A stretch of 34,990 nucleotides of DNA from Halanaeroarchaeum sp. HSR-CO (GCF_024972755.1 NZ_CP087725.1:1-34990); one strand, 5' to 3'; shown: positions 5,893 through 30,643, numbered from the stretch's first letter. The notes: a model not told the origin generated them from the letters alone. A program made the numbers and translations.

Positions 5893-6108
5893 CCATTCAC
5901 TCGTCGATCGGCGGTCGGACATCGCGAGCACGAAAATCAACCGATTTCAAGGCTGAAAGCTCCGGAAACGATGGAGGGTGTCCCCCAATAAAGGGAGTTG
6001 TTTTGGAACTTATGCTGGATAAATGAATGTGGATTCTAGAGGGCCCTACAAGGATCAATACCCCCACCCCACTGTTTCATGTGTTCAGGAAATTGTTCGG
6101 TGGCCGAC
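5893..6108. other. Intergenic region with an ORB-like repeat
   Basis: A forward copy at about 5955-5985 (AAAGCTCCGGAAACGATGGA then GGGTG) matches the ORB copies near both window ends. It lies more than 5 kb from the origin. No gene is supported here. Confidence 0.55.
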
Positions 6109-7014
6109 TTAGCGCTCCAGTGCCTCTCTTAGATCACTTCCAGGAGATCCAAAGATATCATCGAACTCATTGGGTTGGTCCTCTGCAAATGTTCGTAGTT
6201 TCTCTCTGGATGCAATTCCAAATTCGAGCGCTAGGTAATCCTTGGTCGCCGCTCCAATTCGTGGAAGCTCAGCGAGATCGTCTTCGTATTCCAGCTGATG
6301 CGCTTCCAACCACTCGTGAGCCTGTTCAAGGGCTTCATCGGGGGCTAACGACTCATCCGGTCCTGCTTCGACTGAGCGGCCTTTCCGATACCATGCGTTC
6401 CGCTCTGCTTCTGGCGCGTTGCACGCGATTGTAGTACTACCTTCCGGCGCTGGACTGATGGTGAGGTTGAATCGACCGGGAGAAACCCATCGAATCCGGT
6501 TTGAGGATGCCTCCACGAGGTCCCATCCTGTGAACGAGTCCTTTGGATTCAGAAGCTGTAGCGGGCCTGTATCACCGAATGTGCTTCCCGACGAGAACCC
6601 ATCGAGATAGTTCGTCGCTATACTGGAGACGATGTCGCGGTCCACACCGGTATCCCGCGAAATATCGACCGGATCTGCTGTCCCCAGAAGATCGTCGACC
6701 GTTGTGTAGCCTCCGTCGGCAAACCCCACGAGCCGGTCACGATTCATTAGGTCCTCGTGGTGCAGCTGGTCATCAATCCCGGTTTCTTTGAGGTGGTAAA
6801 GATACTCTTGGGCGACCGAGTCCTCGAAGCGGATTTTTCCACCTTCTATTTCGCTCGATTTGAGCGCTTCAATGAGTGTTGGGAAGGAGTATGAGGATTT
6901 GAATAGCGGATCCCATTCCTCCTCGTCATCGTCAAATACCTCCAGATCGGTTTCTGGTTCGAAGTAGATAGGCCGATTAGCGTAGGCAAATTCGAGAAGT
7001 GAGACTGATACCAT
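6109..7014 (-). CDS. Unknown protein with helix-hairpin-helix-like segments
   Basis: About 301 residues from the ATG at 7014. I do not recognise a named family. The C-terminus has a helix-hairpin-helix-like stretch (ELPRIGAATKDYLALEFG, followed by a helical segment), and the middle has a second such segment (TVDDLLGTADPVDISRDTGV). Both resemble the DNA-backbone-binding HhH repeats of repair proteins and topoisomerases. The open frame extends to 7320, but that would overlap the divergent gene at 7123. I chose 7014 because a TATA-like box (ATCTATTTAAT on this strand, 7043-7055) lies about 30 bases upstream, fitting a leaderless transcript; an ATG at 7086 is the alternative. The divergent neighbour is a CoiA-like nuclease, so a shared role in DNA processing or defence is plausible but inferred. 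Confidence 0.7.
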   Translation of the reverse strand: MVSVSLLEFAYANRPIYFEPETDLEVFDDDEEEWDPLFKSSYSFPTLIEALKSSEIEGGKIRFEDSVAQEYLYHLKETGIDDQLHHEDLMNRDRLVGFADGGYTTVDDLLGTADPVDISRDTGVDRDIVSSIATNYLDGFSSGSTFGDTGPLQLLNPKDSFTGWDLVEASSNRIRWVSPGRFNLTISPAPEGSTTIACNAPEAERNAWYRKGRSVEAGPDESLAPDEALEQAHEWLEAHQLEYEDDLAELPRIGAATKDYLALEFGIASREKLRTFAEDQPNEFDDIFGSPGSDLREALER

Positions 7015-7042
7015 TCTCACTGATGGCTGACTGACTCTCGGA

Positions 7043-7096
7043 TTAAATAGATATGCCTCTCTAGCGACCTCGCAATAGGGTATCATTCTATAGGTG
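7043..7096. promoter_or_regulatory. Divergent promoter pair
   Basis: A TATA-like element for the reverse-strand gene lies at 7043-7055 (plus strand ATTAAATAGAT). A second for the forward gene lies at about 7087-7095 (TTCTATAGG). Each is about 30 bases from its ATG (7014 and 7123), the spacing of haloarchaeal leaderless promoters. Both assignments are by eye. Confidence 0.45.
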
Positions 7097-7122
7097 GAGA
7101 GTGCTACCCTACAACAACTAGC

Positions 7123-8226
7123 ATGCCGTTCTTGGCCCTCTACGACGGTATCGAGGTCATTCCGAACCAGGTGCAGAAAGGGGATTTCCTCGAGTGCCCC
7201 AAGTGCGGCGATCAATTGAAAATTCGCGACTCGCATCGCCGTGAGGGGTCGTTTGTCGCGCGACATTTCTATCACGCTGCTGAAGAAGAGACCGACTGTG
7301 GCGGCGAATCTCCACCTCATTTGCGGATGAAATCGATTGCGTACTCGAAGCTCACGACAGAGTATCCTGACGCAACAATAGGGCTAGAGCAACCGCTCGC
7401 TGATCGGCGTGCTGATATCCTCGTTGAGTTTCCAAAGCCACGGTTCCCAGAGGGTCGTGGCATCGGTGTGGAGGTGCAGCACAAGCATGAAGACAAGGAC
7501 GTCGACACTGTTACGGCGGAGTATCTCGCTGAGGAGTATAGCGTTCTCTGGCTGGATCAGGAGGACTTCTCTGGATTCAACGTCGATCTCTCTGGCATCC
7601 TCTCGACGTGGCCTCACGCGGTGCAACACGACTTCAGCGACGGCTATCATGGCGTCATTCACTGGTTGCGACAACCGAAGCCAACAAATTTCTCGATAGA
7701 CGTTGTGCTCCCGCAAGAATATCTAGCTGAACACAGCGAGAGTCTCCGTCGGGCATGGGAGTACGGGAAGTTCGAACAAGGAGGAAAATCGGACTGGAAC
7801 GATCTCGGATTCTGGTGGTTGAGTGCCTCGTATAACCCGTACCAAAAGTGGATCAAACTAACCGAGGCGCCTGACGGGCGGACGATGCTTCAGCTGGGGA
7901 AGCAGGTCCGCGGTACTGAACAGGTTCTTGCACCGGTTCAGACTGGACACTCTCGGAATCGTGGTAAAGTACATAGCTTGGCTTATGAGGTCGACTCAAC
8001 AGATACCTCCGCTGGCGAGTGGGCAGATATCGAAAAGGCGTGGCTCGAAACCGGAGTACGAAGCACTTCAGTCATGCTCAAGCTTGTTGCCACCCCGAGT
8101 GGCGATCTCGCTCTTTCGTTGGGGAAGTACAAGGAGAATAGCGACGACGAGTTCATCACCGTCTCAACTGAGTTCAATCGTAACCTCAAAGAGAACCTCC
8201 ACCAGCTCGCTAACCTTCTGGGCTGA
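7123..8226 (+). CDS. CoiA-like nuclease (zinc-ribbon plus PD-(D/E)xK fold)
   Basis: A 367-residue protein resembling the competence protein CoiA family. An N-terminal zinc-ribbon-like region has C25-x-x-C28, HFYH at 48-51 and C59. It is followed by the family-like PPHLRMK segment (His 66) and a nuclease core with Asp 98 in RRADILVEF and E117-V-Q119 in IGVEVQHK; the E-x-Q form of the PD-(D/E)xK site is typical of CoiA. The remaining 200 residues are unassigned. In bacteria CoiA is needed for processing incoming DNA during transformation. On a haloarchaeal plasmid beside a restriction enzyme, a role in restriction or processing of foreign DNA is equally plausible. A TATA-like box at 7087-7095 supports the ATG at 7123. 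It diverges from the HhH-like gene. Confidence 0.75.
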   Translation: MPFLALYDGIEVIPNQVQKGDFLECPKCGDQLKIRDSHRREGSFVARHFYHAAEEETDCGGESPPHLRMKSIAYSKLTTEYPDATIGLEQPLADRRADILVEFPKPRFPEGRGIGVEVQHKHEDKDVDTVTAEYLAEEYSVLWLDQEDFSGFNVDLSGILSTWPHAVQHDFSDGYHGVIHWLRQPKPTNFSIDVVLPQEYLAEHSESLRRAWEYGKFEQGGKSDWNDLGFWWLSASYNPYQKWIKLTEAPDGRTMLQLGKQVRGTEQVLAPVQTGHSRNRGKVHSLAYEVDSTDTSAGEWADIEKAWLETGVRSTSVMLKLVATPSGDLALSLGKYKENSDDEFITVSTEFNRNLKENLHQLANLLG

Positions 8227-8241
8227 CTAGCGGGTGAACGC

Positions 8242-15794: not shown

Positions 15795-16077
15795 CGAGCC
15801 CTTCTGTAGCAAGATCCGCTTTCTTTCCGGCTTCGATATGTGAATAGTGGTCGTAGGCCATCTCCTCCGGGTTGTCGGGGAGATCTGGGCCAACCGTTTG
15901 AATGCGCTCCTCGACGGCATCCCAGTCGAGACGGACGGCAATGTCTGTCCGCGCTCGACCCGGCCCTGTCGTCCGATACGGGTACTCGCAGAGGAAGTCG
16001 TGATTCGGATACACCGACCGGAGGTACCGCATCGCGGTCTCTGTCATCTCGGGGTGATCGTTCGCGAACACAGTCAT
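15742..16077 (-). pseudogene. Truncated gene downstream of the integrase
   Basis: A 111-codon frame beginning with an ATG that overlaps the integrase stop (ATGA), so it was translationally coupled. The first 90 residues look natural and include a GRARTDIAVRL stretch reminiscent of nuclease-like cores. The last 20 (after KKADLATEG) lose that character and run antisense into the gene at 14682-15794. I infer that the original 3' part was lost at a joint near 15790-15820. GC content also drops sharply there, going from the integrase side to the other. Confidence 0.55.
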
Positions 16078-17285
16078 CAGCTGAAAACGCCCTCGAGGGC
16101 GTTCCGCATCGCGCGGCGCCGGAGCTCGCGGCGCCGTTCCTCGTCGAGGTAGTTCTCCTGGACGACCGCAGCGCTGGCGCTTCCCTGGTCGCCGGCGATC
16201 TCCTCCAGGAGGTCGAGGACCTCAGCCTGCGCGCTCGAGTACGCCTGGTACCAGTAGCGCCGCCCCATCTTCGGAACGGGTAGATCGCCGTCGACGGTGA
16301 CATCGGCGCGGTCGGCGAGCGCTCGGAACCGGTTCCGCACGGTGTCGACGGCGATGTGGCCGGTCTCGCTGCGCGAGCTGGGGAAGACGTACCCGTTCCA
16401 GTCGTCGACGGCGAGGTCGTCCAGACGCGTGGCGAGCTCCTCGAGGCCGACGAGTAGCGCGACCGTCCCGGGGCCGTTCTTCCGGCCCTCGTCGAACTCG
16501 AGGTGGGGGTCATCCTCGTCGAGGACGAGCTGTCGGGCGTGGAGCGCGGCGACCTCGTTCGGGCGCAGTCCCCAGCCGGCGAGCGCCACGATCAAGAGGG
16601 CCTCCTCGCGAGACTCCGTGCACGCGTATAATGCACGCACATCGGCGGCTTCCAGCGCTTTAGGGTCACGGCTCTCTCGCGTCCAGCCGAAGGTGTTCGC
16701 GACGGCATCGACGGGGTTGAACTCGACGCGTCCACGGTCCTGCATCGCCTCGTACCACCGCGATAGGGTGTCTCGGTACCGGATGAGCGTCGAGTCGGAC
16801 AACTCCTCGTCCAGGACGTCGAAGGTCCCGAGGACCCGGTCGACCTCCTCGTGCTGTTCGCGAGCGCCGGCGGCTCCAGCGAGGAGATCGGCGCGGCCGT
16901 GGACATCGGCGTAGGTCTTGATCACGGTCGACAGTGCTGTCCGGTTGGCGTCGACGCTCGACGAGTCGAGCTTTCGGCGCTGCTCGAGGTCCCCAAGATA
17001 GTCTTCGACGGCCTCGCGGGTGTCTGCAGTGGCATCTTCGAGGGGCGAACCCTGGTGGTGACGCTGACGTGAAACGCCGCAGACGCGGGTGAGGAACTCG
17101 GAGACAGTCATATCGTGATGTTCCCTGAGCGCGTAGTCGAGGCCACGATAGCGTCTCGTGATGGTCGTCGCATCGACCTCGAATGGGTCGATTTCGTCCT
17201 CGCGAAGTTCCGCCGCGAGTTCGTCGAGATAGAGGTCGCGCAGTTCGTCCAGTGAGTGTTTGCTCCAGTGGCGGGTCTCAGGCAT
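16077..17285 (-). CDS. Tyrosine recombinase/integrase, haloarchaeal type
   Basis: A 402-residue protein with an N-terminal SAM-like core-binding region (about 90-200) and a C-terminal catalytic domain. The first catalytic arginine lies in GWGLRPNEVAALHARQL (about residue 242), the beta-hairpin lysine in GRKNGPG, the second basic cluster in PKMGRRYWYQAY, and the tyrosine nucleophile is probably in VVQENYLDEERRR. The usual H-x-x-R and H/W positions are altered, as in other haloarchaeal integrases of this branch. It would catalyse site-specific recombination for integration, resolution of dimers or inversion. GGAGGAAT on this strand at about 17291-17298 supports the ATG at 17285. The gene is visibly more GC-rich than its neighbours, a sign of separate origin. 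It overlaps the next gene by ATGA. No att site was identified. Confidence 0.85.
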   Translation of the reverse strand: MPETRHWSKHSLDELRDLYLDELAAELREDEIDPFEVDATTITRRYRGLDYALREHHDMTVSEFLTRVCGVSRQRHHQGSPLEDATADTREAVEDYLGDLEQRRKLDSSSVDANRTALSTVIKTYADVHGRADLLAGAAGAREQHEEVDRVLGTFDVLDEELSDSTLIRYRDTLSRWYEAMQDRGRVEFNPVDAVANTFGWTRESRDPKALEAADVRALYACTESREEALLIVALAGWGLRPNEVAALHARQLVLDEDDPHLEFDEGRKNGPGTVALLVGLEELATRLDDLAVDDWNGYVFPSSRSETGHIAVDTVRNRFRALADRADVTVDGDLPVPKMGRRYWYQAYSSAQAEVLDLLEEIAGDQGSASAAVVQENYLDEERRRELRRRAMRNALEGVFS

Positions 17286-19281: not shown

Positions 19282-19977
19282 ATGCGTCGGAATATGAATG
19301 ATAAAACTGAGTCCGGAATCTCTATTTCCGTATCTATACCGGCTAAGAACACGGAATTATACGGAAGCAGAGTTACCGATGACATTCTGCTGTTTTTGTC
19401 TCGGAACCGATTTGAAGAATTCACACAGCGCGAGGTGGCTCGCCATCTCGACGAAGCCTCTGAAACCACCGTTCGTCGAGTCATAGCAACGTTGGCAGAG
19501 AACGAGCTTGTCACGGTAGAAGACGCGGGGAATAAGAAGTTAGTCCAAATCAACCGACAGCGTCTTTCCGTTTCTGATGACCCATTTCTCCAAATCCCCC
19601 AAGAGGAGTTCCAATGGCCAGTCAAAGTGGCCACACACGAGATAGAGGAGAGGTTGGATGGTGTTTCGGGGGTCGTCCTCTACGGGAGTGTTGCCAGGGG
19701 TGAAGCAGATCGACGCAGCGATATAGACCTCTGGGTGCTCGTGGACGAGGAACGAGCCGAACAGCAGCGGATGGCCAGTTACATCGAGGACGATCTAGAA
19801 GATAGAGAGTTTGACGGAGAGCGATATGATTTCCACATTGCGGTCGAATCGATTGAGTCCCTCCCAGCGTTCACAGAAGACATCAGTCGCATCGTTAGAT
19901 CCGGAATTCCCACCTCTAAAACTGAGAATTTCGAAACGCTGAGGAATCTGTTCGTTCACGGGGATCATAATGAGTGA
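19282..19977 (+). CDS. mntA: MNT-type nucleotidyltransferase antitoxin with N-terminal winged helix
   Basis: A 231-residue protein. Residues about 30-95 form a winged helix (FTQREVARHLDEASETTVRR, wing VTVEDAGNKKLVQI). Residues about 115-230 form a minimal nucleotidyltransferase (MNT): G135-S136 then D147-x-D149 in GSVARGEADRRSDIDL, the metal- and nucleotide-binding motif. In characterised HepT-MntA systems the MNT partner inactivates the HEPN toxin by adding AMP residues to it. The extra DNA-binding head suggests that this antitoxin also controls its own operon. It overlaps the HEPN gene by 8 bases. The ATG at 19294 (MNDKTESG) is an alternative start. Confidence 0.85.
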   Translation: MRRNMNDKTESGISISVSIPAKNTELYGSRVTDDILLFLSRNRFEEFTQREVARHLDEASETTVRRVIATLAENELVTVEDAGNKKLVQINRQRLSVSDDPFLQIPQEEFQWPVKVATHEIEERLDGVSGVVLYGSVARGEADRRSDIDLWVLVDEERAEQQRMASYIEDDLEDREFDGERYDFHIAVESIESLPAFTEDISRIVRSGIPTSKTENFETLRNLFVHGDHNE

Positions 19978-20470
19978 TCCTAGTTACGTGACTGCCCCTC
20001 TTGCCCGAGCCGAAGACGCTTTCGAGTACATTGGAAAGGGCAAACCAACGTTCGAAGATGGGATAGACCAGGACGAAGAGTGGACGACACAGCTCACAAA
20101 GGCTTGTAAGTACCTTGAGGCGTGCCGAACACTTCGGAGCCAAAACGGATTCAACGGGGCAGTGATCGAGCTCAGTTTTAGCGCGATCGAGCGCTCACTC
20201 GAAGGCTATCTTCTTCAAGATACTAAAGACAGCATTGCTGATTATCTTGATCACGAGTTCGTCTACGAACGAGCGGGTGCCAGAGGCCTCTTCACCCGGG
20301 ATACGGCACAGAAACTGAAGGAGTTGTACGGAACCAACCGGACAGAGCACTACTACGGGAAGCTAGCCCCGACCCAGGAGAAGGCGGACGCCATGTTCGA
20401 ACTTGCTGAAGGTGTCCATCAGCACGTCACTGACCAGATCAACAATAGTGGCGTGTGTCTCTGTGATTGA
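19970..20470 (+). CDS. hepT: HEPN-family protein, putative toxin partner
   Basis: A 166-residue helical protein overlapping the end of the MNT gene, the usual order of MNT-HEPN pairs being toxin and antitoxin side by side. The helix CKYLEACRTLRSQNGFNGAV and the later segment TNRTEHYYGKLAPTQEKADA are HEPN-like. The RNase motif of HEPN toxins is R-x4-6-H; here the site reads T122-N-R124-T-E-H127. The Arg is thus two residues closer to the His than usual and the expected first Arg is a Thr. The protein may be an altered toxin or have lost RNase activity. Two cysteines near the C-terminus (VCLCD) are unusual. Confidence 0.75.
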   Translation: MSDPSYVTAPLARAEDAFEYIGKGKPTFEDGIDQDEEWTTQLTKACKYLEACRTLRSQNGFNGAVIELSFSAIERSLEGYLLQDTKDSIADYLDHEFVYERAGARGLFTRDTAQKLKELYGTNRTEHYYGKLAPTQEKADAMFELAEGVHQHVTDQINNSGVCLCD

Positions 20471-20519
20471 TTAAGCGTCCTTGTTGATGTGACGATTTCT
20501 GCCCCTCATAGTGGAAGAC

Positions 20520-20693
20520 ATTGATTGTGGCATTTTTTAGACCCCATTCCTACCAGGCACCTCAAAGATTTGAGAGATGCCTGCGTGCTGAATGCAGCGC
20601 GCGAATTCAGCAACTGGAACAAGCAAAATCCCCCTCAAAATCTGTTATGGAGGAGATTTCTTACTGGACCTAGGGCGATCCGGCGAGTGGTTC
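20520..20693 (+). pseudogene. Possible gene remnant before the stressosome operon
   Basis: One plus-strand frame is open for about 55 codons with protein-like sequence (DPIPTRHLKDLRDACVLNAA then REFSNWNKQNPPQNLLWRRF) and a stop near 20693. There is no start or promoter. It looks like the end of a lost gene, perhaps from a mobile element, but I cannot name it. The rest of the gap between 20471 and 20763 holds a TATA-like AAATATTAATG near 20712. Confidence 0.3.
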
Positions 20694-20763
20694 CCTGATA
20701 CACCATGCACAAATATTAATGAAAACCAAGTGGTAATCAGACTGGAACACATTATATTTCCAT

Positions 20764-21540
20764 ATGGCGAAAAATTCCTCTCCCGAATTACTTGAAGAGG
20801 CAATCAACTCCTTTGGAGACCTCTTCTACGTATTCACCCCCGAGGGTGCGTTTGTCGAGTGGAACACTCAATTCACAAACGTCACCGGATACTCCGATGA
20901 GGAAATATCGGAATTGAATGTAACCGCTCTCGTCCCGGAATCTGAGCGCGAACGGTTGAATGAAGCACTCGATACGGTTTCCCGAGACTCAACAACGGTG
21001 ACAATTTCTACAGAACTCGAAACCAAGACGAAGGATCGTATCCCGTACGAATTCCAATTAGCCAAACTCGATAATTCGGACCGGAACGACAACGCAGTGG
21101 CAAGCATTGGTCGGGAAATCACTGATTCTGACCGAGAAGCGGTAAGTCAGTTGATGTCGTACCAATCGCAGGGACTCTCCGTCCCCATTGTTGAAATTTG
21201 GGACGGGATTTTGCTATCGACAGTTATTGGGAAGCTGAGCTCAGCTGAGGCAGAAATGTTCACAGATGCCCTGTTGGACCAAATTGCCGAAAAAGGGGCT
21301 TCAATTGCCATCATCGATATTACTGGTGCTGATTCGGTCGATACGCAGACCGCCCAACACCTCATCGACACGATTCATGCTGTCAAGCTGATGGGCGGCC
21401 AAACCATCATCACTGGGCTCAATCCAAACATCTCTCAAACGCTCGTAAAACTCGGAATCGCGTTCGACGTGGAGACCCGCTCATCGCTTCAGGACGGTCT
21501 CAAAACGGCACTCAAACTCCAGGAGGTAGCTTTCGACTGA
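20764..21540 (+). CDS. rsbR: RsbR-like stressosome sensor (PAS + STAS)
   Basis: A 258-residue protein with an N-terminal PAS domain (about 12-125; GDLFYVFTPEGAFVEWNTQF and a GREITD end) and a C-terminal STAS domain (about 140-255). In bacteria RsbR proteins form the stressosome shell with RsbS, and the sensory N-terminus sits on turrets. The STAS phosphosite region is preserved: T194 in DSVDTQTAQH and T226 in LNPNISQTLVKLG, at positions like those phosphorylated by RsbT in Bacillus. PAS rather than the globin-like sensor of Bacillus RsbRA suggests a different signal (redox, light or ligand). It overlaps rsbS by TGATG and begins a five-gene operon. Start: ATG 20764, in a weakly defined promoter region. 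Confidence 0.85.
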   Translation: MAKNSSPELLEEAINSFGDLFYVFTPEGAFVEWNTQFTNVTGYSDEEISELNVTALVPESERERLNEALDTVSRDSTTVTISTELETKTKDRIPYEFQLAKLDNSDRNDNAVASIGREITDSDREAVSQLMSYQSQGLSVPIVEIWDGILLSTVIGKLSSAEAEMFTDALLDQIAEKGASIAIIDITGADSVDTQTAQHLIDTIHAVKLMGGQTIITGLNPNISQTLVKLGIAFDVETRSSLQDGLKTALKLQEVAFD

Positions 21541-21908
21541 TGTTGCAAAACAGTGCCAATGTGGTTCGGATTTACGACATCCTGTTAGGAACCTTTCCCA
21601 ACAATCCCAGGGACCAAGCCATCGACGAGTTACAGGAGGCATTACTGGAGGAGATGGAAAAATCGCGGCCAGAGGGAGTCATATTGGACATATCCGGCGT
21701 TGAGTTAATGGACTCGTTTTTCGCTCGCCATATTTCCGAGACGGCGCAGTTAGTCGAGCTCATGGGGGGAAAAACGGTCATTGCAGGAATGCGACCTGAA
21801 GTTGCGATCACAGCTGCTGAACTTGGTTACGGACTCACTGAGGTCGAAACGGCCCGTTCAACTGACCAAGCACTAGAAATATTAGGTGTTAGTTGGGACT
21901 CAGAATGA
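21540..21908 (+). CDS. rsbS: RsbS-like single STAS-domain stressosome protein
   Basis: A 122-residue lone STAS domain. The phospho-acceptor serine is S59 in VELMDSFFARH, the same residue number as S59 of Bacillus RsbS, followed by the family-like LMGGKTVIAGMRPEVAITAA. In the known system RsbS and RsbR hold RsbT in the complex, and phosphorylation of RsbS by RsbT releases it. The gene starts at the last base of the rsbR stop and overlaps rsbT by ATGA, so the proteins are made from one message at matched levels. Confidence 0.88.
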   Translation: MLQNSANVVRIYDILLGTFPNNPRDQAIDELQEALLEEMEKSRPEGVILDISGVELMDSFFARHISETAQLVELMGGKTVIAGMRPEVAITAAELGYGLTEVETARSTDQALEILGVSWDSE

Positions 21909-22309
21909 ATGAACACTCTGGGCGTATCGAGATCGGTTCGGAGGATGATATCCTCAGGGCCCGTCATGCTGCCCGAAAAGTGGCAGAGGATATTGGCCTT
22001 GGAATGACCGATACCACTCGGATCGTGACGGCCGTTTCCGAACTCGCTAGGAATATCTATCTGTATGCAGGGGAGGGAACGATGGAATGGGAGCCGATTC
22101 CCGAACGGAATCGAAATGGACTCACATTCGTGTTCAGGGACGATGGACCGGGGATAGCCGACCCCAACGGAGCCCTCAAAGGTGAACACTCCACGTCGAA
22201 CGGGATGGGTCGTGGCTTGTCCGGCACACAGACGCTGATGGACGACATGGAAATTGAAACCGAAGTCGGTGAGGGTACCATCATAACAATCAGAAAGTGG
22301 GGACAATGA
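21905..22309 (+). CDS. rsbT: RsbT-like serine/threonine kinase (GHKL fold)
   Basis: A 134-residue protein. The N-box is TAVSELARNIYLYAG (Glu and Asn of E-L-A-R-N), the G1 box is FRDDGPGI, and the C-terminal G2 region is GMGRGLSGTQTLMDDMEIET ending in TIITIRKWG. This matches RsbT rather than RsbW-type anti-sigma kinases, which lack the R-N-I and the K-W ending. RsbT phosphorylates RsbR and RsbS and, once released, activates a downstream partner. The usual partner RsbU is not in the window. The ATG at 21905 overlaps the rsbS stop (ATGA); an upstream TTG at 21893 is less likely. Confidence 0.88.
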   Translation: MNEHSGRIEIGSEDDILRARHAARKVAEDIGLGMTDTTRIVTAVSELARNIYLYAGEGTMEWEPIPERNRNGLTFVFRDDGPGIADPNGALKGEHSTSNGMGRGLSGTQTLMDDMEIETEVGEGTIITIRKWGQ

Positions 22310-22950
22310 AACCAGGATCTACCCCCGATAACGAGCCAACCACGGTTGAGGACCACGAAATACCGAAACAAATTCCAGTCTCGATTGGAGCAGCAACAAG
22401 ACCCATATCGGAGGGTGAACCAAACGGTGATTCGTATATTTGCATTACTTGGAACGACACGACACTGGTCGGCGTCATGGACGGTCTCGGGCATGGGCTT
22501 CCCGCCAATCAGGCGTCAACCGCTGCACGTGATTACGTCGAGTCTCATGTAGAGTGCTCACTGGAGTCGATCTTTCGCGGGACAGACAGCGCTTGCAGTG
22601 GGACTCGTGGGGTCGTTATGGCGCTTGCCAAGTTTGATTGGTCGGCTGAAACGATTAGCTTTGCCCACGTTGGAAATATCAATGTGAAAGTCGCCGGACC
22701 CGAGTGGACCGGATTCATCGTCCGTCGCGGTGTCATCGGGGGAAACTATCCGGGGGCTAAAGTTGTCACTCGGGACTGGGACCTCTCTCATACATTCGTC
22801 TTGTACTCGGACGGGGTTTCTACAGGTTGGGAGTGGCAGGACATCCGTGAAGGGGAACAGGAAACGGCCAGTACGATAGCAAACCGCTTGCTCAACGAGT
22901 ATGGCAAATCCGACGATGATGCCACGGTTCTCGTCGTCACAAACCAATGA
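22306..22950 (+). CDS. rsbX: RsbX-like PP2C phosphatase
   Basis: A 214-residue PP2C-type phosphatase consisting of the catalytic domain alone, like RsbX. Metal-binding motifs: NGDSYI, VGVMDGLGHGLPAN and, near the end, LYSDGVSTGW and KSDDDATVLVV; HVGNINVKV is the conserved strand. RsbX removes the phosphates from RsbR and RsbS and so resets the stressosome. It overlaps rsbT by ATGA and the kinase gene by ATGA. The absence of an N-terminal RsbT-binding domain argues against RsbU. Confidence 0.87.
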   Translation: MKPGSTPDNEPTTVEDHEIPKQIPVSIGAATRPISEGEPNGDSYICITWNDTTLVGVMDGLGHGLPANQASTAARDYVESHVECSLESIFRGTDSACSGTRGVVMALAKFDWSAETISFAHVGNINVKVAGPEWTGFIVRRGVIGGNYPGAKVVTRDWDLSHTFVLYSDGVSTGWEWQDIREGEQETASTIANRLLNEYGKSDDDATVLVVTNQ

Positions 22951-25900
22951 CTGACCCAAACAAATCAAGCCCACCGGAGGCACCTGAACATGAGAAGACT
23001 GGGCGTAATCCCACATCGGACGAGCCTCCAACCCATCGGCTCTATGAGGTGATTGAAGATGGCGAGTTATCGTTGGAAGAAAAACAACGTCGGGTACTCG
23101 AACTGGTAAAAGAGTATCTTGGCGTCACAAATGGGTACATCCAAAGCCATTCAACCGATAGTACAACGGATGAAATACTGGTCAGTGTCGGAGACGATCC
23201 TAACTTATTCCCTGAAGGGGAAACATACGATCGTGACACTACCTATTGTCGGCGAACTGTGGACGAGAGGGCGCCTATAGCACTTTCAAACGTACCCGAG
23301 CAAGGTTGGGAGAACGACCCTGCCTATGTGGAACATGAGGTTGCATGTTATCTCGGAACTACCCTATTCAACCGGGGGAGTGTATACGGAACCATCTGTT
23401 TCGTTCAGCGAGAGCCACGAGATGCCGAGTTTTCTCCTGAGGAAACAATGCTTGTTGAACTGGCCGCCCGTCTTTTGGGTCGAAAAATCGAAGACACTCA
23501 ACACAAAAAGGTGATAGCTGAGAAAAAAGCCCTCCAAACGGAACTGGAGAAAACGACAAAAGGAACGCTCCAGCTCGCGTCGGAACTAGAGCAACGTTAT
23601 CAACGGCTCTTCGAAGGTGCCGTCGAAGGGATCTATAAGACCACCGAGGGACTTGGTAAGTATCGCTTGGCGAATGCAGCGTTCGCAGACCTGCTTGGAT
23701 ACGAAAGTGGTGATGCATTATGCGAAGCAATTGAGAGTATCAAAGAGGACGTGTTTGTAAATCCAACCAGATATGAAGAATATTCTGAAACCCTCCAAAA
23801 AGACAGAGAGATTGACCAGTTCGAGTATCAGATTCGAACCGCAGATGGCGAGAGACGGTGGGTTTCGGACAGTGTGAGAGTTATTACAGACGAGAAGGGT
23901 GCAATAAAAGGATACAGGGGCGGAGTCGTTGACATTACCGAGGACAAACAGCAAGAACGTGCCCTGAAACGGCAGACCAATCTTAGTATTGTCTTAAACC
24001 GGGTGCTTCGACACAATTTGCGAAATAAACTCTCTGTCATCAGGGGGTATACCCAGATGATGGCCGACCAACTGGGCGATGATCCCAGTGGGCTGAAGGC
24101 ACTGAATGCGATCGACGACCTCATCGCTTTGAGTGAAAAGGCCCGTGACCTTGACGAAATAATTTCTAACGATGCTGAACCCCGGCCAGCCGATATCCCG
24201 GACCTCATTGAGGGGGTCGTCACGCAGATGCGACGGGAGAATCCATCGGCGACTATCTCAATTGACAGAAAATGGGATGAAGAGATTACGGCCGAAGTGC
24301 GTCCGAGCTTCGAACGTGCCATCCGGGAACTCGTTGAAAATGCTGTCAAGCACAGCGGTGATGAACCGAGAGTCGAGGTAACAATCGAACCGGATCCCGA
24401 CGATGTCCAAATCCACATCACCGACAATGGAGACGGACTCGGTGAACAGGAGGTAAAGGTCCTTCAATCCGGGTCGGAAACGCCATTACTGCACGGTAGT
24501 GGACTGGGGCTGTGGCTGACACACTGGATCGTGACAAGCCAGGGTGGGTACATCAATGCCACCGCATCAAAAGAGGGATCGACGCTCTCGGTTTCAGTTC
24601 CTAGAACCCAGTCAGATGGGGATCAGAACCAATTGGCCGAAATGGTTAGAGCCCGTGATCGGTACAAATCTGTCTTCAAAGAAGCCGGCGATGGTATGAC
24701 GATCACTGATGATGAAGGACGAATTCTGGCTGTGAATAACGAGGCAGCTCGAATCTTTAGAGTGCCCCAACAGGAGCTGATCGGCCGGTCGATACAGGAA
24801 TTCCTTCCAGCCGATTTCGACTTCGAAGATGAATGGGGTGAAATCACTGCGTCCGACACCAAACGTGGAGAACTCCCGATCGCCAGTGCTGAAGGTGGCG
24901 TGAGATGTGTCGAGTATACGACAAAAGCCGATGTCGTCCCCGGTCAGCACCTCATCGTCAGTCGAGATGTCACTGAGCGTAACGAACGTGAACGGGAACT
25001 TAAGCGGATGCGAGACTATTTTGAAGAGGCCGAACGACTCGGGGGCCTTGGGGCCTGGGAAGTAGATGGTGAGGGAAACCTCAGGTGGACAGCGGGGACG
25101 CGAAACATCCACGAGGTAGATGAAGATTTCGAGCCAACGCTTTCGGCCGCAATCGAATTTTATCACAACGACGACCGGCAACAAATAGAGGAAGCCGTCA
25201 ACGACGCACGAACGGCTGGAAAACCGTTTGACATTGAAGCACGAATTATCACAGCCACAGGCGATATCCGATGGGTCCGAGCGAGTGGCGGGCCGATTGA
25301 CAGCGAGATGGTTCGTGGCTACATTCAAGACATCACCGAGCAGAAGGAGCGCGAACGGCAGGTGGTTGAGATGAAGGAACGATACCAATCGTTGTTGAAG
25401 TCGTCCCCGGACCCGGTAATTGTCGCAGATGGCGAGTCGGGCGAAATCATCGAAGTGAGTGACGCTGCCGAAGCATTGTTCAAGAGGTCAAGTGACGAAT
25501 TCAACGGTATGTATCAGTCTGACCTCCATCCACCGGACCAAGCCGAGGCTTACCGGGAACTGTTCGAGGAACACATCCAAAGTGGTGGAACCAAGCGGCG
25601 ACTTCCCGATGGATCGCCCATCGATATCGTCACCGCCGATGGGGAACATATCCCGGTCGAAATCAGCAGTGGTACGGTCGAACTTTCCGATGGTCCAGTC
25701 ACGTACGGTATCTTTCGGGATATCTCCGATCAAGTCGAACGGGAACGTCAGATCGAACAAGAGCGAGCGAAATTCCGGGGAGTCTTCGAGGATTCCCTCG
25801 ACGCGATGGTCATCGCCGGCGATGATGGCCGCTATATCGATGTGAACGAGAGGGCGATCGACTTGTTCGGGGTCCCTGAGGAGGAACTGCTTGGACAGTC

Positions 25901-26492
25901 GATTGCCGACTTTGCCCCAGAGGACTTCGACTTCGCCAAGGCATGGCAGGAATTTCAGGAATCGGAAAAAGAACGCGGAACATTCCCCCTCATCCGAGCC
26001 GATGGTGACGAGCGAATCGTGGAGTACGCTGCAACACGGGATATCGTCCCTGGCAAAAACCTACCAATATTGAGAGATATCACCGAGCGCGAGGAGCGCG
26101 AACGGGAGTTGGTGGAAAAGACCCGACAACTTGAAGCAATCGTCCAAAACACCGAAGAAGCGATCTACATCAAAGATACAGCGGGGTACTATCAGTTCAT
26201 CAACGATAGTGGTGCGGACGTGTTCGATATGTCGGTTGAGGAGATTATCGGCAAACATGACGAAGACCTCTTCGAGGCTGAAAGCGCAGCCGACATTCGT
26301 TCCGAGGACGAGAAGGTGATGGAATCCGGCGAGGCAGTACGGAAGGAGACGGTGCGGTACATTGAGGGCGAGAAACACGTCTTTCTCGATGCGAAATATC
26401 CGTACCGTGACGAGGATGGTGAGGTTATCGGATTGATCGGGATCAGTCCGGATATTACCGATCGCACAGAGCAGATAAGGGAACTCCGGTGA
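22947..26492 (+). CDS. GAF/multi-PAS histidine kinase, ends at an in-frame stop
   Basis: A 1181-residue protein. Order of domains: GAF-like (about 30-190); coiled coil; PAS (about 215-335); kinase core with phospho-acceptor His 356 in RVLRHNLRNKLSVIRGY, N-box ENAVKHS (Glu 464, Asn 465), DNGDGLG and GSGLGLWL (ends about 555). Four more PAS-type repeats follow to about 1175. Two of these are close copies of each other (SVFKEAGDGMTITDDEGRI and GVFEDSLDAMVIAGDDGRY), showing internal duplication. A kinase core in the middle with PAS domains after it is unusual. The stop at 26490 is followed in the same frame by a second stop at 26499 and then a complete kinase module. It is translationally coupled to rsbX and lacks a neighbouring response regulator. 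In Vibrio-type stressosome operons a histidine kinase also follows rsbX. Confidence 0.85.
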   Translation: MTDPNKSSPPEAPEHEKTGRNPTSDEPPTHRLYEVIEDGELSLEEKQRRVLELVKEYLGVTNGYIQSHSTDSTTDEILVSVGDDPNLFPEGETYDRDTTYCRRTVDERAPIALSNVPEQGWENDPAYVEHEVACYLGTTLFNRGSVYGTICFVQREPRDAEFSPEETMLVELAARLLGRKIEDTQHKKVIAEKKALQTELEKTTKGTLQLASELEQRYQRLFEGAVEGIYKTTEGLGKYRLANAAFADLLGYESGDALCEAIESIKEDVFVNPTRYEEYSETLQKDREIDQFEYQIRTADGERRWVSDSVRVITDEKGAIKGYRGGVVDITEDKQQERALKRQTNLSIVLNRVLRHNLRNKLSVIRGYTQMMADQLGDDPSGLKALNAIDDLIALSEKARDLDEIISNDAEPRPADIPDLIEGVVTQMRRENPSATISIDRKWDEEITAEVRPSFERAIRELVENAVKHSGDEPRVEVTIEPDPDDVQIHITDNGDGLGEQEVKVLQSGSETPLLHGSGLGLWLTHWIVTSQGGYINATASKEGSTLSVSVPRTQSDGDQNQLAEMVRARDRYKSVFKEAGDGMTITDDEGRILAVNNEAARIFRVPQQELIGRSIQEFLPADFDFEDEWGEITASDTKRGELPIASAEGGVRCVEYTTKADVVPGQHLIVSRDVTERNERERELKRMRDYFEEAERLGGLGAWEVDGEGNLRWTAGTRNIHEVDEDFEPTLSAAIEFYHNDDRQQIEEAVNDARTAGKPFDIEARIITATGDIRWVRASGGPIDSEMVRGYIQDITEQKERERQVVEMKERYQSLLKSSPDPVIVADGESGEIIEVSDAAEALFKRSSDEFNGMYQSDLHPPDQAEAYRELFEEHIQSGGTKRRLPDGSPIDIVTADGEHIPVEISSGTVELSDGPVTYGIFRDISDQVERERQIEQERAKFRGVFEDSLDAMVIAGDDGRYIDVNERAIDLFGVPEEELLGQSIADFAPEDFDFAKAWQEFQESEKERGTFPLIRADGDERIVEYAATRDIVPGKNLPILRDITEREERERELVEKTRQLEAIVQNTEEAIYIKDTAGYYQFINDSGADVFDMSVEEIIGKHDEDLFEAESAADIRSEDEKVMESGEAVRKETVRYIEGEKHVFLDAKYPYRDEDGEVIGLIGISPDITDRTEQIRELR

Positions 26493-26501
26493 CACATTTA
26501 G

Positions 26502-27113
26502 CGCCTCGACGAATTTGTCAGCGTGGTCTCCCATGACCTCCGAAACCCACTGAACGTTGCCCAAGGTCGGCTAGAACTCGTCCAAGAGCAAAATAACCAC
26601 GAACATCTCGACGCCGCAGCGGATGGGGTCGAACGCAGTCTTGAATTAATCGAGGATTTGTTAGCTCTCGCCAGAGGATGTCAAGAGGTTGGTAAGATGG
26701 AACCTGTGGAGGTGACTGAAATCGTCCAAACCTGTTGGGAGTCAGTTGAAACAGCCGATGCAACCGTTGTTGCCGATCTTGAGTCAACAATACAGGCTGA
26801 TCGAAGCCGGCTTCGCCAACTTCAGGAGAATTTGTTCCGCAATGCGATTGAAAATGGGGGCAGAGATGTGACTGTTCTCATTGGTTCACTGCCCGACGGG
26901 TTTTATGTGGAGGATGATGGCCCTGGAATCCCGGAGAAGGTGCGGGAAAATGTCATTGAGTCAGGCCACTCGGAAAGCCCCGAGAGAACTGGATTCGGAT
27001 TATACATCGTCCAGCAGATTGTGGAGGCCCACGGTTGGGACCTACGTAATTCCGAATGTTCCGAAGGTGGAGCCCGATTCGAATTTACGGGCGTTGAGTT
27101 CGCTGCTGAATAG
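26502..27113 (+). pseudogene. Detached histidine kinase module in the same frame as the preceding gene
   Basis: About 200 residues starting RLDEFVSVVSHDLRNPLNVA. They contain the phospho-acceptor His (H-D-L-R-N-P), the N-box NLFRNAIENGG, EDDGPGIPEKV and TGFGLYIVQQIVEAHGW, and so form a whole HisKA/HATPase unit. It lies in frame with the gene at 22947, separated by TGA (26490) and TAG (26499). The natural start of such modules is the E-R-L-D-E-F helix, which here begins immediately after the second stop, so it looks like a longer kinase split by two point mutations. A GTG at 26523 could start a separate protein, but it would cut the leading helix and no ribosome site is seen. If both stops were sense, the whole would be about 1388 residues with two kinase cores. 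Confidence 0.65.
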
Positions 27114-27668
27114 ATGGTCTATATTCAGCAAGGCAGTTTAGCCAATATCAGTTTCCAAATTAATTTCTAATGAGACGGAAAGTCTAACTATTAATGTCCC
27201 CCCTATAGGAAGCGGATCTGATAGACCCATCGAGGCAGTCTGGTGCCTTCTCCCCTCACCCATTTCCAAAATTGCAATCCAATCAGTTATTAGCCACCGG
27301 CCCGTAGGATTAACCGCACTACCAGGCGCGGCGAGGATTGCTGTGGTTTTCTCGCCGCCAACCTCACCTACCATAGCGGCAGGTCTGTGGGCTAGTTTTT
27401 GTATCATGGTGGCAAGGATGGTCCAATTCAGTCCCAAAATTCCTTCTGTGAATACCCCAACACTCCCTCCATCATAGTGGCAAGCTGTAGTACTAGTTTT
27501 GGCAATGATATCGGTAAAATATGAGCCGATTACAGTGCCAAAATCCCCCGGTAATTATTTATTTATCACCGTCACTCAATCATTCACTCACGCACCTCGA
27601 CGCCTGCTTGCGGTTTTTATCTCTGAGCGCGTGCAAAACTTTTAAGTGAAACTATCGCCTCTATACTA
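27114..27668. other. Long intergenic region with inverted and short direct repeats
   Basis: No gene supported. It holds the first arm of a perfect 23-bp inverted repeat (27314-27336) whose partner is at 27686-27708. It also has three short repeats of the form CATAGYGGCARG (27372-27382, 27405-27415, 27473-27483), two of them followed by CTAGTTTTKG. A TATA-like TTTTAAGTG lies at about 27640-27648. Confidence 0.5.
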
Positions 27669-27708: not shown

Positions 27709-27898
27709 GTCCGGCATACCAAATCTACGCCCGTGAACGCGGAGCAACGCTCCGCTGGAGCCACGGCCGTACGCTGCCGGAAACGGCACCTGCTAGAGCG
27801 ATGGCGCTGGTTTCTGCCGGCGACCTAAGCTCTCTGCACAGCCGCTGCTCCACCACGGTCGGCCCGCTGTTCGAGGGTATATTCCGAACGTGATCATC
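27670..27898 (+). ncRNA. Possible structured RNA or leader before the ubiquitin-like operon
   Basis: Starting about 25 bases after a TATA-like box, this GC-rich stretch holds three perfect hairpins: AGGGTC/GACCCT (27671-27688), GCGGAGC/GCTCCGC (near 27739-27755) and TGCCG-GAAA-CGGCA, a GNRA-type tetraloop (near 27776-27789). It runs directly into the gene at 27899. One frame is also open from about 27627 to 27892 but has no start codon in front, so a decayed coding fragment is an alternative. I do not recognise the RNA family. Confidence 0.35.
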
Positions 27899-28504
27899 AT
27901 GTCACGCGAAAACACACCGGCCGACCAAGGTGAACAGTCAGTCAACTACGCAGTCGTCGAGTCCGCCATCCAGGACGCGCAGGACCACCTCGCAGATGCA
28001 GAGGAGGGAATCGACAACGCGTTCAACGACGACCTCGCCGACATTCGGCGGCGACTGAAGCAAATCGAGAACGCCGTAGACGAGAGTCAGGATGACGAGG
28101 AGTCACAGGCGCTCGGCATCGTGCCCGCACAGTTGGACTACATCCAGCGGGCCGTCGAAATTCTGCAAGAACAGACCGGTCACGACGTCCTGGACGACGT
28201 CGAGCGCAGCCTGGAAGCGGTGGAAGAGCACACCGAACGTTCCACCATCGAGAAGACCCGGTGGTTCGCAGAAGTCGATGGGAGCCCCGAGGTCTTCTCC
28301 GAAAAGGAGGTCCAAGCCCATCGGCTGAAGAAGGTGGGGGACATCAGCGGACAGAGCGAGAACTATACGCTCTACGCCGTCCCCACCCCGACGGCCTCTC
28401 CTGAAGACAAGATCGCCGAGTTCCCCGCAGATGACAACCGGGCAGACCTCGTCGATGTTGGACCTTACTTCCTCACCGAGAAGGCGGAAGGAGGGGTCGT
28501 GTAG
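27899..28504 (+). CDS. Ubiquitin-like protein with coiled-coil N-terminus
   Basis: About 201 residues from the ATG at 27899 (the GTG at 27890 is less likely). Residues 1-120 are acidic and helical with heptad-like repeats (DDLADIRRRLKQIENAVDES, then DVLDDVERSLEAVEEH). Residues about 123-201 look like a beta-grasp, ubiquitin-like domain of the prokaryotic multiubiquitin type (RWFAEVDGSPEVFSEKEV, YTLYAVPTP, VGPYFLTEKAEGGVV). The chain ends in Gly-Gly-Val-Val, so trimming of two residues by the JAB peptidase encoded downstream would expose a Gly-Gly tail for activation by E1. It is the first gene of a three-gene operon; the stop overlaps the next start (TAGTG). The fold call rests on pattern and context. 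Confidence 0.7.
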   Translation: MSRENTPADQGEQSVNYAVVESAIQDAQDHLADAEEGIDNAFNDDLADIRRRLKQIENAVDESQDDEESQALGIVPAQLDYIQRAVEILQEQTGHDVLDDVERSLEAVEEHTERSTIEKTRWFAEVDGSPEVFSEKEVQAHRLKKVGDISGQSENYTLYAVPTPTASPEDKIAEFPADDNRADLVDVGPYFLTEKAEGGVV

Positions 28505-28986
28505 TGGCGAACCGCTCTACCTGGGGCGTGTCCCCTGACGAGCTCAGCCGGGACTTTCTCGATGGGCTCGAAGCTCTCCAGGCCGCCGTCGAAGAACGCG
28601 TCCCTCCTGTGGACGAGGACGTTCGCCCCGTCACAAGGCACCGGGGGAACATCGTCGTGCAGCTCGGTGAGTGGCCCACTGGGAAATACGAACGTGTGGG
28701 CGTGGAGTACGTCCCATCCCAGGTGACTGTGTTCGTACAAATCCCGCCCCAGTTCCCAACTGGCGGTGGAAAGGGATTCATCACGTCACCTCCTCTCGAA
28801 CGTGCGGACCGGACCGGCCTCAACAACAACCCCTGGAACGACCAGCTGGCATCAGCCGTAGAGCGCGAGGTCGGTGATGGCGAGGTCAAGGCATACAGCC
28901 ACAACTGGACGAACACGTCCATGAACCAGCCCGAGGACATGGCGAAGTTCCTCGACGTCGCCGAAGAGTTCTTGAGTCGTGGGTGA
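28504..28986 (+). CDS. E2-fold (UBC-like) protein lacking cysteine
   Basis: A 160-residue protein that starts with GTG sharing a base with the upstream stop. The pattern VTVFVQIPPQFPTGGGKGFI then SPPL resembles the P-x-x-F/Y-P signature of prokaryotic E2-like proteins, and AYSHNWTNTSMNQPEDM would correspond to the region after the active site. There is no cysteine anywhere in the sequence, so it cannot form the usual thioester with a ubiquitin-like protein. It could be a pseudo-E2 scaffold, use another residue, or belong to an E2-like family that acts without a thiol. Position between a ubiquitin-like gene and a JAB-E1 gene supports the call. Confidence 0.7.
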   Translation: MANRSTWGVSPDELSRDFLDGLEALQAAVEERVPPVDEDVRPVTRHRGNIVVQLGEWPTGKYERVGVEYVPSQVTVFVQIPPQFPTGGGKGFITSPPLERADRTGLNNNPWNDQLASAVEREVGDGEVKAYSHNWTNTSMNQPEDMAKFLDVAEEFLSRG

Positions 28987-28990
28987 ACGG

Positions 28991-30643
28991 ATGAATTCGA
29001 CATCACTCATAGGGTCATCTGTTCACGAGAGCGACTACAGGGCCACCATTGACGACCATGAGCACCTGTTGGCGATGGATGCTGGGACGGCAGAGGAACT
29101 GGAACGTATTCTTTCCCCCGAGACTGGCCCGTTCCAAGAGTGGGGTGAGCGCGGCGCGATTTGCGTCATTGCACCTTCATCAGGGGCAAATCGGACCACA
29201 TACCTCGTTCGTGACGTCATCCAGCCCAGTGCTGATGATCTCCGACTCGAGGAGACGACGTTTGGACACGAGCTGATATTTGAGCCGGTGTACAAGCGAA
29301 GAGCACGACGCGAGGCGCTTGACAAACGCGGAACTGCCGGCCTCCTCTACGTCCATTCACATCCTGAGCGGGCAGAAGGAAAGTTCTCACCTGGCGATCT
29401 GGAGCACGATACAGCTCAGCTCTACCAGGAAGCGAAGCGGTTGGAAGACCCAGATGCACCCTTACTGGTGGCCGTGACCCATGATGGGGACGACCCATGG
29501 CAGGTGTGGCGGTATACCTACAGGAGAGCTCGAACGAAGGCCCAGCGTCGAAGCGACAAGTTCGGACCCGAATCCGTCCAACGAATTGCCATCACTGCAA
29601 TCCGTGTGGTGGGCGAGACCTTGGAAAAACGCCCAACAGCAGATGGCGAGCGAGTGCGTGGACCACCATCCCACCACGGGAGGTTGAGTGAGGAGCTGCA
29701 GGACTCAACGATTCGGCTCTGGGGACGATCGGGACAGAGGTTGTTTGCCGGTCTGCGTGTCGGGATCGTTGGGTGTGGCGGGGGAGGATCAATTCTCGCA
29801 GAAACGTTGGCACGGCTTGGGGTGGGCGAACTCGTACTGATCGACTTCGATCGCGTCGAACCGGGGAACGCGAACCGTCATCTCGGGGCCACACCGGCAG
29901 ACATTGAGAACCGCCGTGACAAGGTCGAAGTTTGTAAGCGGATCGCAGAGACGGCCGCGACTGCCCCCGATTTCGAGGCGCGTGCAGTCGTAGGCAGTGT
30001 TTTCGAGAATCAGTGGGGCGACTATGATGCCCTCGAAGACCTCCTCGACTGTGACGTGGTGATGAACGCGGCAGATCCAGACACCGCACGAGCAGTCGTA
30101 AGCCGGCTCTCGTACGCGCATATCATCCCGGCCATCGACGCTGGATCCACGTTACCATCTGAAAATGGAGAACTGACGTGGAAAGCGAGAGCAACTGTCG
30201 CTGTTTCGGGACCGGGGCATCCCTGCCTGAAGTGTAGTGGTCAGTGGAGTGATGGAGGGTTCGAGAATCACCGGACCCCCGAGGGGTACGAGGAACAAGG
30301 CTACTACGACGATGAAGAGCAGCAGGCGAACGATGATGAAGAGGTCAGACAACCCAGTTCGATGCCGACGAACTTGATCGCCATGGGACTCGCCTCACAG
30401 CGGTTCATTGGCCTCATCCAGGGTATCACACCCGACCTCAACGTTGGAAAGTTGAACTTCCGGCTTGCCTCGTGGGGCACCGATTGGAAAGAACTGGGCG
30501 ATAACAGGCTCCAGGAATGTCTAGACAGCTGTCGTCGTCCAGAAACGGGCATAGGCGATGGCGCAGACCTCAAGCGAGGGGAAGACTTCCACCTCCGCGA
30601 GGAGCGCAGAAGCGCCAGTACCGACACTGAAAATATCGGCTAA
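28991..30643 (+). CDS. JAB peptidase - E1 (ThiF) fusion
   Basis: About 550 residues from the ATG at 28991 (a GTG at 28979 would overlap the previous gene). The N-terminal JAB/JAMM metalloprotease has H122-x-H124 and S133-x-x-D136 in VHSHPERAEGKFSPGD. The C-terminal ThiF/E1 domain has the ATP-binding loop GCGGGGS (261-267), the strand VLIDFDRVEPGNANRH and a candidate active-site cysteine in GHPCLKC (C412, C415). E1 enzymes adenylate the C-terminus of a ubiquitin-like protein; JAB domains process or remove it. Having both in one chain matches prokaryotic conjugation operons, some of which (Bil, CBASS Cap2/Cap3) defend against phages. Downstream is a strong hairpin and the convergent membrane-anchored winged-helix genes. 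Confidence 0.87.
   Translation: MNSTSLIGSSVHESDYRATIDDHEHLLAMDAGTAEELERILSPETGPFQEWGERGAICVIAPSSGANRTTYLVRDVIQPSADDLRLEETTFGHELIFEPVYKRRARREALDKRGTAGLLYVHSHPERAEGKFSPGDLEHDTAQLYQEAKRLEDPDAPLLVAVTHDGDDPWQVWRYTYRRARTKAQRRSDKFGPESVQRIAITAIRVVGETLEKRPTADGERVRGPPSHHGRLSEELQDSTIRLWGRSGQRLFAGLRVGIVGCGGGGSILAETLARLGVGELVLIDFDRVEPGNANRHLGATPADIENRRDKVEVCKRIAETAATAPDFEARAVVGSVFENQWGDYDALEDLLDCDVVMNAADPDTARAVVSRLSYAHIIPAIDAGSTLPSENGELTWKARATVAVSGPGHPCLKCSGQWSDGGFENHRTPEGYEEQGYYDDEEQQANDDEEVRQPSSMPTNLIAMGLASQRFIGLIQGITPDLNVGKLNFRLASWGTDWKELGDNRLQECLDSCRRPETGIGDGADLKRGEDFHLREERRSASTDTENIG

Follow-up and report, generated by a model that had tools for sequence, protein, structure and literature searches.

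The window analysed here, a 34,990-bp stretch of DNA from Halanaeroarchaeum sp. HSR-CO (GCF_024972755.1, NZ_CP087725.1:1-34990), carries between positions 20764 and 27113 an operon encoding the stressosome proteins RsbR, RsbS, RsbT and RsbX, followed by a sensor histidine kinase. We think it probable that this operon represents a minimal RsbRSTX stressosome of a haloarchaeal lineage, which stems from bacteria with loci of the rsbRSTX-kinase type, forms a cassette within a plasmid-like replicon and sends its output from RsbT through a linker helix to the kinase. What is new here, as far as sequences tell, is a helix that is conserved in the product of the gene after rsbX despite differing outputs, and it is a candidate, open to testing, for what connects minimal stressosomes with their targets, a link that has been missing so far. 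The literature already mentions stressosome modules in 'some archaeal species' (PMC9237108, PMC10014275). The archaeal stressosome as a kind is therefore already known, and these mentions, together with the occurrence of RsbT in many other Halobacteriota, lower the novelty that a preliminary description of the locus had implied.

The RsbR-S-T-X operon

The five open reading frames (ORFs) lie on the plus strand in the order RsbR, RsbS, RsbT, RsbX and kinase, and are joined by TGATG or ATGA overlaps of 1–4 bases, with the RsbR-S-T-X part covering positions 20764–22950. RsbR (20764–21540, 258 aa) consists of a PAS and a STAS domain, as identified with Pfam and by phmmer against the PDB, RsbS (21540–21908, 122 aa) is a single STAS domain, RsbT (21905–22309) is a GHKL serine/threonine kinase and RsbX (22306–22950) a PP2C/SpoIIE-type phosphatase. 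Two start sites have been corrected: rsbT begins at ATG 21905, within an ATGA overlap with rsbS, and rsbX probably at ATG 22306 rather than at GTG 22297 as described earlier. Residues T194 (21343–21345) and T226 (21439–21441) of RsbR are invariant in the aligned homologues, as is S59 (21714–21716) of RsbS, here with the B. subtilis protein included. The N-box and G-box of RsbT are kept (SELARN from residue 44 and DDGPG from residue 78), as are the metal motifs of RsbX (DGLGHG from residue 62 and SDG from residue 171), where positions are counted from 21908 for RsbT and from 22297 for RsbX; a script check found every key residue and motif that had been named for the locus.

In sequence searches of the PDB, RsbS matched B. 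subtilis RsbS (6jhk, E=3e-18), the STAS domain of RsbR matched 7o0i (E=8e-21), with RsbR proteins as the top phmmer matches, and RsbX, which also matches the SpoIIE model of Pfam, matched 3zt9 (E=2e-16) and the RsbX structure 3w40 (E=1e-12). The matches of these three proteins are far beyond chance. SpoIIAB is the sole PDB match of RsbT. Pfam profiles assigned PAS and STAS, STAS, GHKL, SpoIIE/PP2C and HisKA-HATPase domains to the five proteins in agreement with the preliminary description, and rsbR and rsbS account for the only STAS matches genome-wide. Compared with the two closest loci, the RsbRSTX genes have ratios of non-synonymous to synonymous substitution (dN/dS) of 0.09–0.25, that is, they are under purifying selection. 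RsbU, RsbV, RsbW and SigB were sought among the scanned ORFs and none was found, in keeping with the earlier statement that no RsbU, sigma factor or anti-sigma factor lies nearby. The RsbR-S-T-X operon is genuine, and the stressosome reading stands.

As a module, the stressosome is a particle of ~1.8 MDa with a STAS core, from which RsbT is released upon phosphorylation. By analogy with the family, the STAS scaffold on which RsbT is held would consist of RsbS and of RsbR with its PAS sensor. Upon a signal, RsbT would phosphorylate T194 and T226 of RsbR and S59 of RsbS and would itself be released, and RsbX would reset the scaffold.

Phylogeny and distribution of RsbT

Strong RsbT matches are present in 11 of 391 haloarchaeal genomes, that of the window included, at both chromosomal and plasmid loci, the latter exemplified by Halobaculum halophilum NZ_CP058531. 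The survey also recovered rsbR-S-T-X and an output gene in the same order in other haloarchaea. A further 24 non-haloarchaeal Halobacteriota genomes, out of 393 searched, encode RsbT. In the RsbT tree, which bears directly on the stressosome reading, the window protein is placed beside bacterial RsbT of rsbRSTX loci. The haloarchaeal sequences form one clade (SH-aLRT 88–92, not starred) beside a Methylococcaceae sequence, and this clade is nested, with a support of 91, in a group made up of bacterial rsbRSTX loci, far from RsbW. The placement with anti-sigma-type kinases that, by the preliminary description, would refute the stressosome reading was not seen. Most other archaeal RsbT proteins are placed elsewhere in the tree, among bacteria. 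The simplest reading, given a short gene and moderate support, would be that haloarchaeal rsbT was acquired by transfer from bacteria. A single origin of all archaeal RsbT was also considered and is unsupported, the haloarchaeal clade being apart from the other Halobacteriota, which are placed at other points among bacteria. A literature search on haloarchaeal stressosomes returned nothing on point within its coverage, outside which lie most subscription papers and the 2017 review cited for archaeal stressosomes.

A linker helix in the protein encoded after rsbX

In 10 of the 12 haloarchaeal loci, the protein encoded after rsbX carries a helix of the form E-L-x-x-T-N-[E/R]-G-x-x-A-L, which in its haloarchaeal version, E-L-x-x-T-N-E-G-x-x-A-L-x-x-E-L, precedes the sensor or effector part. 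The window kinase has a diverged copy (ELEKTTKGTLQLASEL; 23520–23612, plus strand), a candidate RsbT-docking element that matches with an E value of 1.6e-13 a model that includes the window's close relatives. The proteins behind rsbX differ widely. A giant multi-PAS kinase is encoded in the window and in its two closest loci, L033 and L034, a PAS kinase alone in L035 and L036, a GAF-PAS kinase following a gap in L038 and L039, a GAF-BAT-HTH_10 transcription regulator in L040–L042, and a short PAS kinase plus a REC-HalX response regulator in L037, an arrangement that L043 shares by sequence. Overall, the helix is carried by non-homologous outputs, namely kinases, hybrid kinases, the GAF-BAT-HTH_10 regulator and a SpoIIE-family phosphatase.

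When 391 haloarchaeal genomes were searched with a 32-column helix model, the 10 strong matches, mostly training sequences of the model, were all in post-rsbX genes, and the next best match had an E value of 4e-4; a role as a general haloarchaeal signalling coil is rejected by this search. Among sequences not used for training, the helix was found in 6 of the 24 other archaeal genomes with RsbT, each time in the gene following a GHKL-SpoIIE rsbX, and in bacteria it is clear in the plasmid loci of Deinococcus (two), Sphingomonas and Variovorax and weak in Streptomyces. A tblastn search of 72,556 plasmids with a 44-residue helix query returned 8 records, and in all 8 an RsbT match lies upstream of the helix within ~2.3 kb. 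A literature search on the T-N-R-G motif, with most subscription papers likewise outside its coverage, returned nothing on point.

In B. subtilis, T89-x-x-G92 of the RsbU linker contacts RsbT, and RsbT activates RsbU by making this linker adopt an ordered coiled-coil form (PMC12143880). An analogous, RsbU-linker-like role fits a helix that lies ahead of a dimeric effector and is conserved solely in proteins encoded behind rsbX. We hypothesize that free RsbT most likely binds the T-N-x-G helix, which in the next protein immediately precedes the PAS-HisKA-ATPase core, and alters the state of the kinase; the kinase would hand its phosphate to a chromosomally encoded response regulator. The suggestion that the linked kinase is a new target of RsbT has thus gained real support from the conserved helix in the post-rsbX protein, with binding itself as the hypothetical step.

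Several observations weigh against this proposal. In the window and in the same-family genome G001, which harbours L033 and L034, the helix has a diverged form, T-T-K-G, and it is missing from two Halonotius loci in spite of their RSTX genes. It also shows no sequence homology to the B. subtilis RsbU linker, a relationship that was tried and rejected, since Bacillales RsbU proteins read EHQSLR without the G and reach hidden Markov model scores of ≤1.4. Furthermore, the window kinase gene is interrupted, as described below, and binding between VvRsbT and VvD1 of Vibrio vulnificus was not detected in published work (PMC9237108). The helix was, however, not found in the kinase of the tested Vibrio-type locus (Vibrio sp.), with which the non-detection of VvRsbT-VvD1 binding agrees.

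A different partner for the helix could be the additional GHKL domain that RsbX, or else the output protein itself, carries as a fusion, in which case RsbX-GHKL rather than RsbT would be the messenger. Most helix-bearing loci indeed encode a GHKL-SpoIIE RsbX, some outputs have a GHKL domain of their own ahead of the helix, and the helix has diverged where RsbX is without GHKL. We nevertheless consider this explanation improbable. The window RsbX has no N-terminal GHKL domain of the kind found on most other haloarchaeal RsbX proteins, nor do the RsbX proteins of both G001 loci, yet the helix is kept in all three post-rsbX proteins, and conversely Halonotius possesses a GHKL-RsbX and no helix. 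Because the helix persists in these three loci although their RsbX has no GHKL, RsbT is a more likely partner for it than the GHKL domain of RsbX.

Signalling helices ahead of kinase cores are common, and the helix might be a coil for dimerisation only, carried along with the locus, while RsbT phosphorylates the kinase or another protein transiently, as has been put forward for Vibrio (PMC9237108). A generic coil would, however, not be restricted to the post-rsbX gene across 391 genomes and 72,556 plasmids, and would not precede GAF-BAT and phosphatase outputs alike, which makes this explanation, too, quite unlikely in our estimate.

Returning to RsbT as the partner, we regard it as a possibility somewhat short of even that the helix is a portable RsbT receiver, such that any effector carrying it, be it a histidine kinase, a hybrid kinase, a GAF-BAT-HTH_10 regulator or a PP2C phosphatase, becomes a stressosome output. 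If true, this would explain how one sensory machine is plugged into differing bacterial and archaeal transcription systems; in haloarchaea, a bacterial sensor would be coupled to the archaeal outputs REC-HalX and BAT-HTH_10 with no sigma factor. For Vibrio and most Gram-negative loci, the route by which stressosomes that lack RsbU pass on their signal is described as an open question (PMC9237108). The helix would answer it in a short, concrete and testable way for a considerable proportion of rsbRSTX loci, and it could serve as a genome marker of stressosome targets.

Two further kinds of helix proteins were seen. At L167 6023–9784 and L182 5977–7845, the output protein itself has a GHKL domain ahead of the helix; these natural GHKL-helix-kinase fusions occur once in an archaeon and once on a Sphingomonas plasmid. 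In four other archaeal genomes, the post-rsbX helix protein is only 144–167 aa long (L165 6231–6734, L166 6396–6845, L171 6154–6597 and L172 6138–6572). A domain scan of the L166 protein yielded no known domain, and such short proteins may be stand-alone receivers.

Interruption of the kinase gene

The sensor kinase (22947–26492, plus strand) has 1181 aa up to its first stop and is composed of GAF, linker helix, PAS, a HisKA-like H-box (RHNLRNKLSVIRGY), HATPase and several PAS domains; RsbU_N was sought in it with Pfam and gave no match. Two in-frame stops, TGA (26490–26492) and TAG (26499–26501), with CAC ATT between them, occupy positions 26490–26501 of the plus strand, where the relatives read CAGCGACAAAATGAG or CAGCGGGAAAAAGAC. 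They sever the last HisKA-HATPase module (26502–27113, plus strand, same frame), which in L033 and L034 is still joined to the kinase; in these plasmid-borne copies the protein is a single chain of 1572 or 1689 aa. The operon had been called complete, which holds for RsbR-S-T-X, the gene order and the overlaps and fails for the kinase. Because the stops sever this module, the output of the window locus, if any, would run via the internal kinase core. The genome has ten response-regulator matches above the curated cut-off, all of them chromosomal and none on the window contig, as the preliminary description had noted for the neighbourhood.

The two stops fall within four codons at a site where the relatives are open, and among the segments compared with L034, dN/dS is highest in the detached part (0.27, against 0.09–0.23 for the others), which would suit a copy en route to a pseudogene, with a functional sensory core and an output kinase removed by the double stop. 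We think such decay of the output rather unlikely, as a ratio of 0.27 is still purifying and neither the five ORFs nor the detached part showed a further stop or frameshift. Moreover, the retained helix-PAS-HisKA-HATPase core, which has its H-box, a complete HATPase and a dN/dS of 0.17, corresponds to the whole kinases of shorter loci elsewhere.

Comparison with known stressosomes

The minimal rsbRSTX loci with two-component output in Deinococcus radiodurans MP1, Variovorax and Sphingomonas resemble the window in having rsbR-S-T-X followed by a kinase, an RsbT in one supported clade with that of the window and a T-N-R-G helix in the output protein. In contrast to these, the window has an archaeal host, a PAS sensor in RsbR, an RsbX without N-terminal GHKL and a giant, interrupted multi-PAS kinase with a second HisKA module. 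The Vibrio vulnificus locus RsbRSTX-VvD1-VvD2 (PMC9237108) likewise has a sensor kinase after RSTX and no sigma factor. The comparison with the Vibrio type made earlier is right in part only: the V. vulnificus RsbR is a globin rather than a PAS protein, and the Vibrio-type kinase is helix-free in the Vibrio sp. locus and accompanied by an adjacent response regulator gene. In the window, the kinase behind rsbX is interrupted, and the response-regulator matches are chromosomal. Bacillus and Listeria (RsbRST-U-V-W-SigB-X) have RsbR, RsbS, RsbT, RsbX and the phosphosites in common with the window, which differs by the absence of RsbU, RsbV, RsbW and a sigma factor and by an output protein without RsbU_N. 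Among haloarchaea, the Halobaculum halophilum plasmid NZ_CP058531 has an RsbT of the same lineage and a helix-PAS-HisKA kinase after rsbX; unlike in the window, this kinase is short and intact and is joined by a REC-HalX response regulator. Its annotation reads STAS, anti-sigma regulatory factor, ATP-binding protein and response regulator. The L040–L042 loci depart from the window in having the GAF-BAT-HTH_10 regulator in place of a kinase.

Palindromic boundaries and the replicon

The operon is flanked by 27-bp palindromes of the form TGCTGAAT-N11-ATTCAGCA, one of GCGC type on the left (20586–20612) and one of GACC type on the right (27104–27130), which overlaps the kinase stop codon. DNA homology to L034 (G001:C3) spans 20583–27117, ending inside or adjoining the palindromes, and homology to L033 ends on the right at 27130. 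Palindromes of this kind are far more frequent than a reversed-pattern control in many haloarchaea, occur with ≤1 mismatch in 114 of 194 genomes and in many cases form pairs at a distance of 67 bp, with a 40-bp spacer that is conserved in part. They lie between gene cassettes in the window and in L206, L208, L211, L212, L033 and L034, and a 3.5-kb segment that has a palindrome at each end shows 99% identity between a G001 plasmid (L208 2683–6159) and the G007 chromosome (L212 7069–10545). The palindrome-bounded segments look like a cassette system, possibly an unrecognised mobile one; a literature search on haloarchaeal palindromic cassettes, again with most subscription papers outside its coverage, returned nothing on point. 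The palindromic boundaries support the earlier description of the operon as mobile and would offer a route for movement of the module between anaerobic haloarchaea. Together with the left palindrome, the leader (20508–20585, plus strand) is ~82% identical over 109 bp to plasmid pHSR2-01, where it lies upstream of a PAS-domain gene.

The window is the entire second contig of a genome of 2.79 Mb in total. The contig behaves like a plasmid, as it encodes Orc1/Cdc6 and ParA. Terminal overlap was sought at its ends as a sign of circularity, and there is none.

Elsewhere on the contig, positions 2056–5892 encode a restriction-methylase of the Eco57I/type IIG-like kind (1278 aa), and 6094–8227 a divergent pair of ORFs that overlap in part and whose function is unknown, a plasmid module common among haloarchaea, with 86–87% identity in Halobellus, Halorubrum and Halobacterium plasmids. 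A 67% GC island at 16077–17285 (the contig has 52% GC) encodes a product that weakly matches an XerA-type recombinase model. Immediately upstream of the stressosome leader, an MNT-like nucleotidyltransferase with a winged helix and an overlapping 166-aa partner without family match (19282–20470) likely form a HEPN-MNT-type toxin-antitoxin pair. Downstream of the operon, at 27890–30643, three genes encode an E1-like ThiF/JAB protein (554 aa), a protein of 160 aa that matches no family and one of 204 aa that ends in EGGVV. The ThiF/JAB protein is classified as E1-E2 by PADLOC and matches 6A-MBL cap2_3 of NCBIfam below the cut-off, and the set looks like a ubiquitin-like conjugation defence operon.

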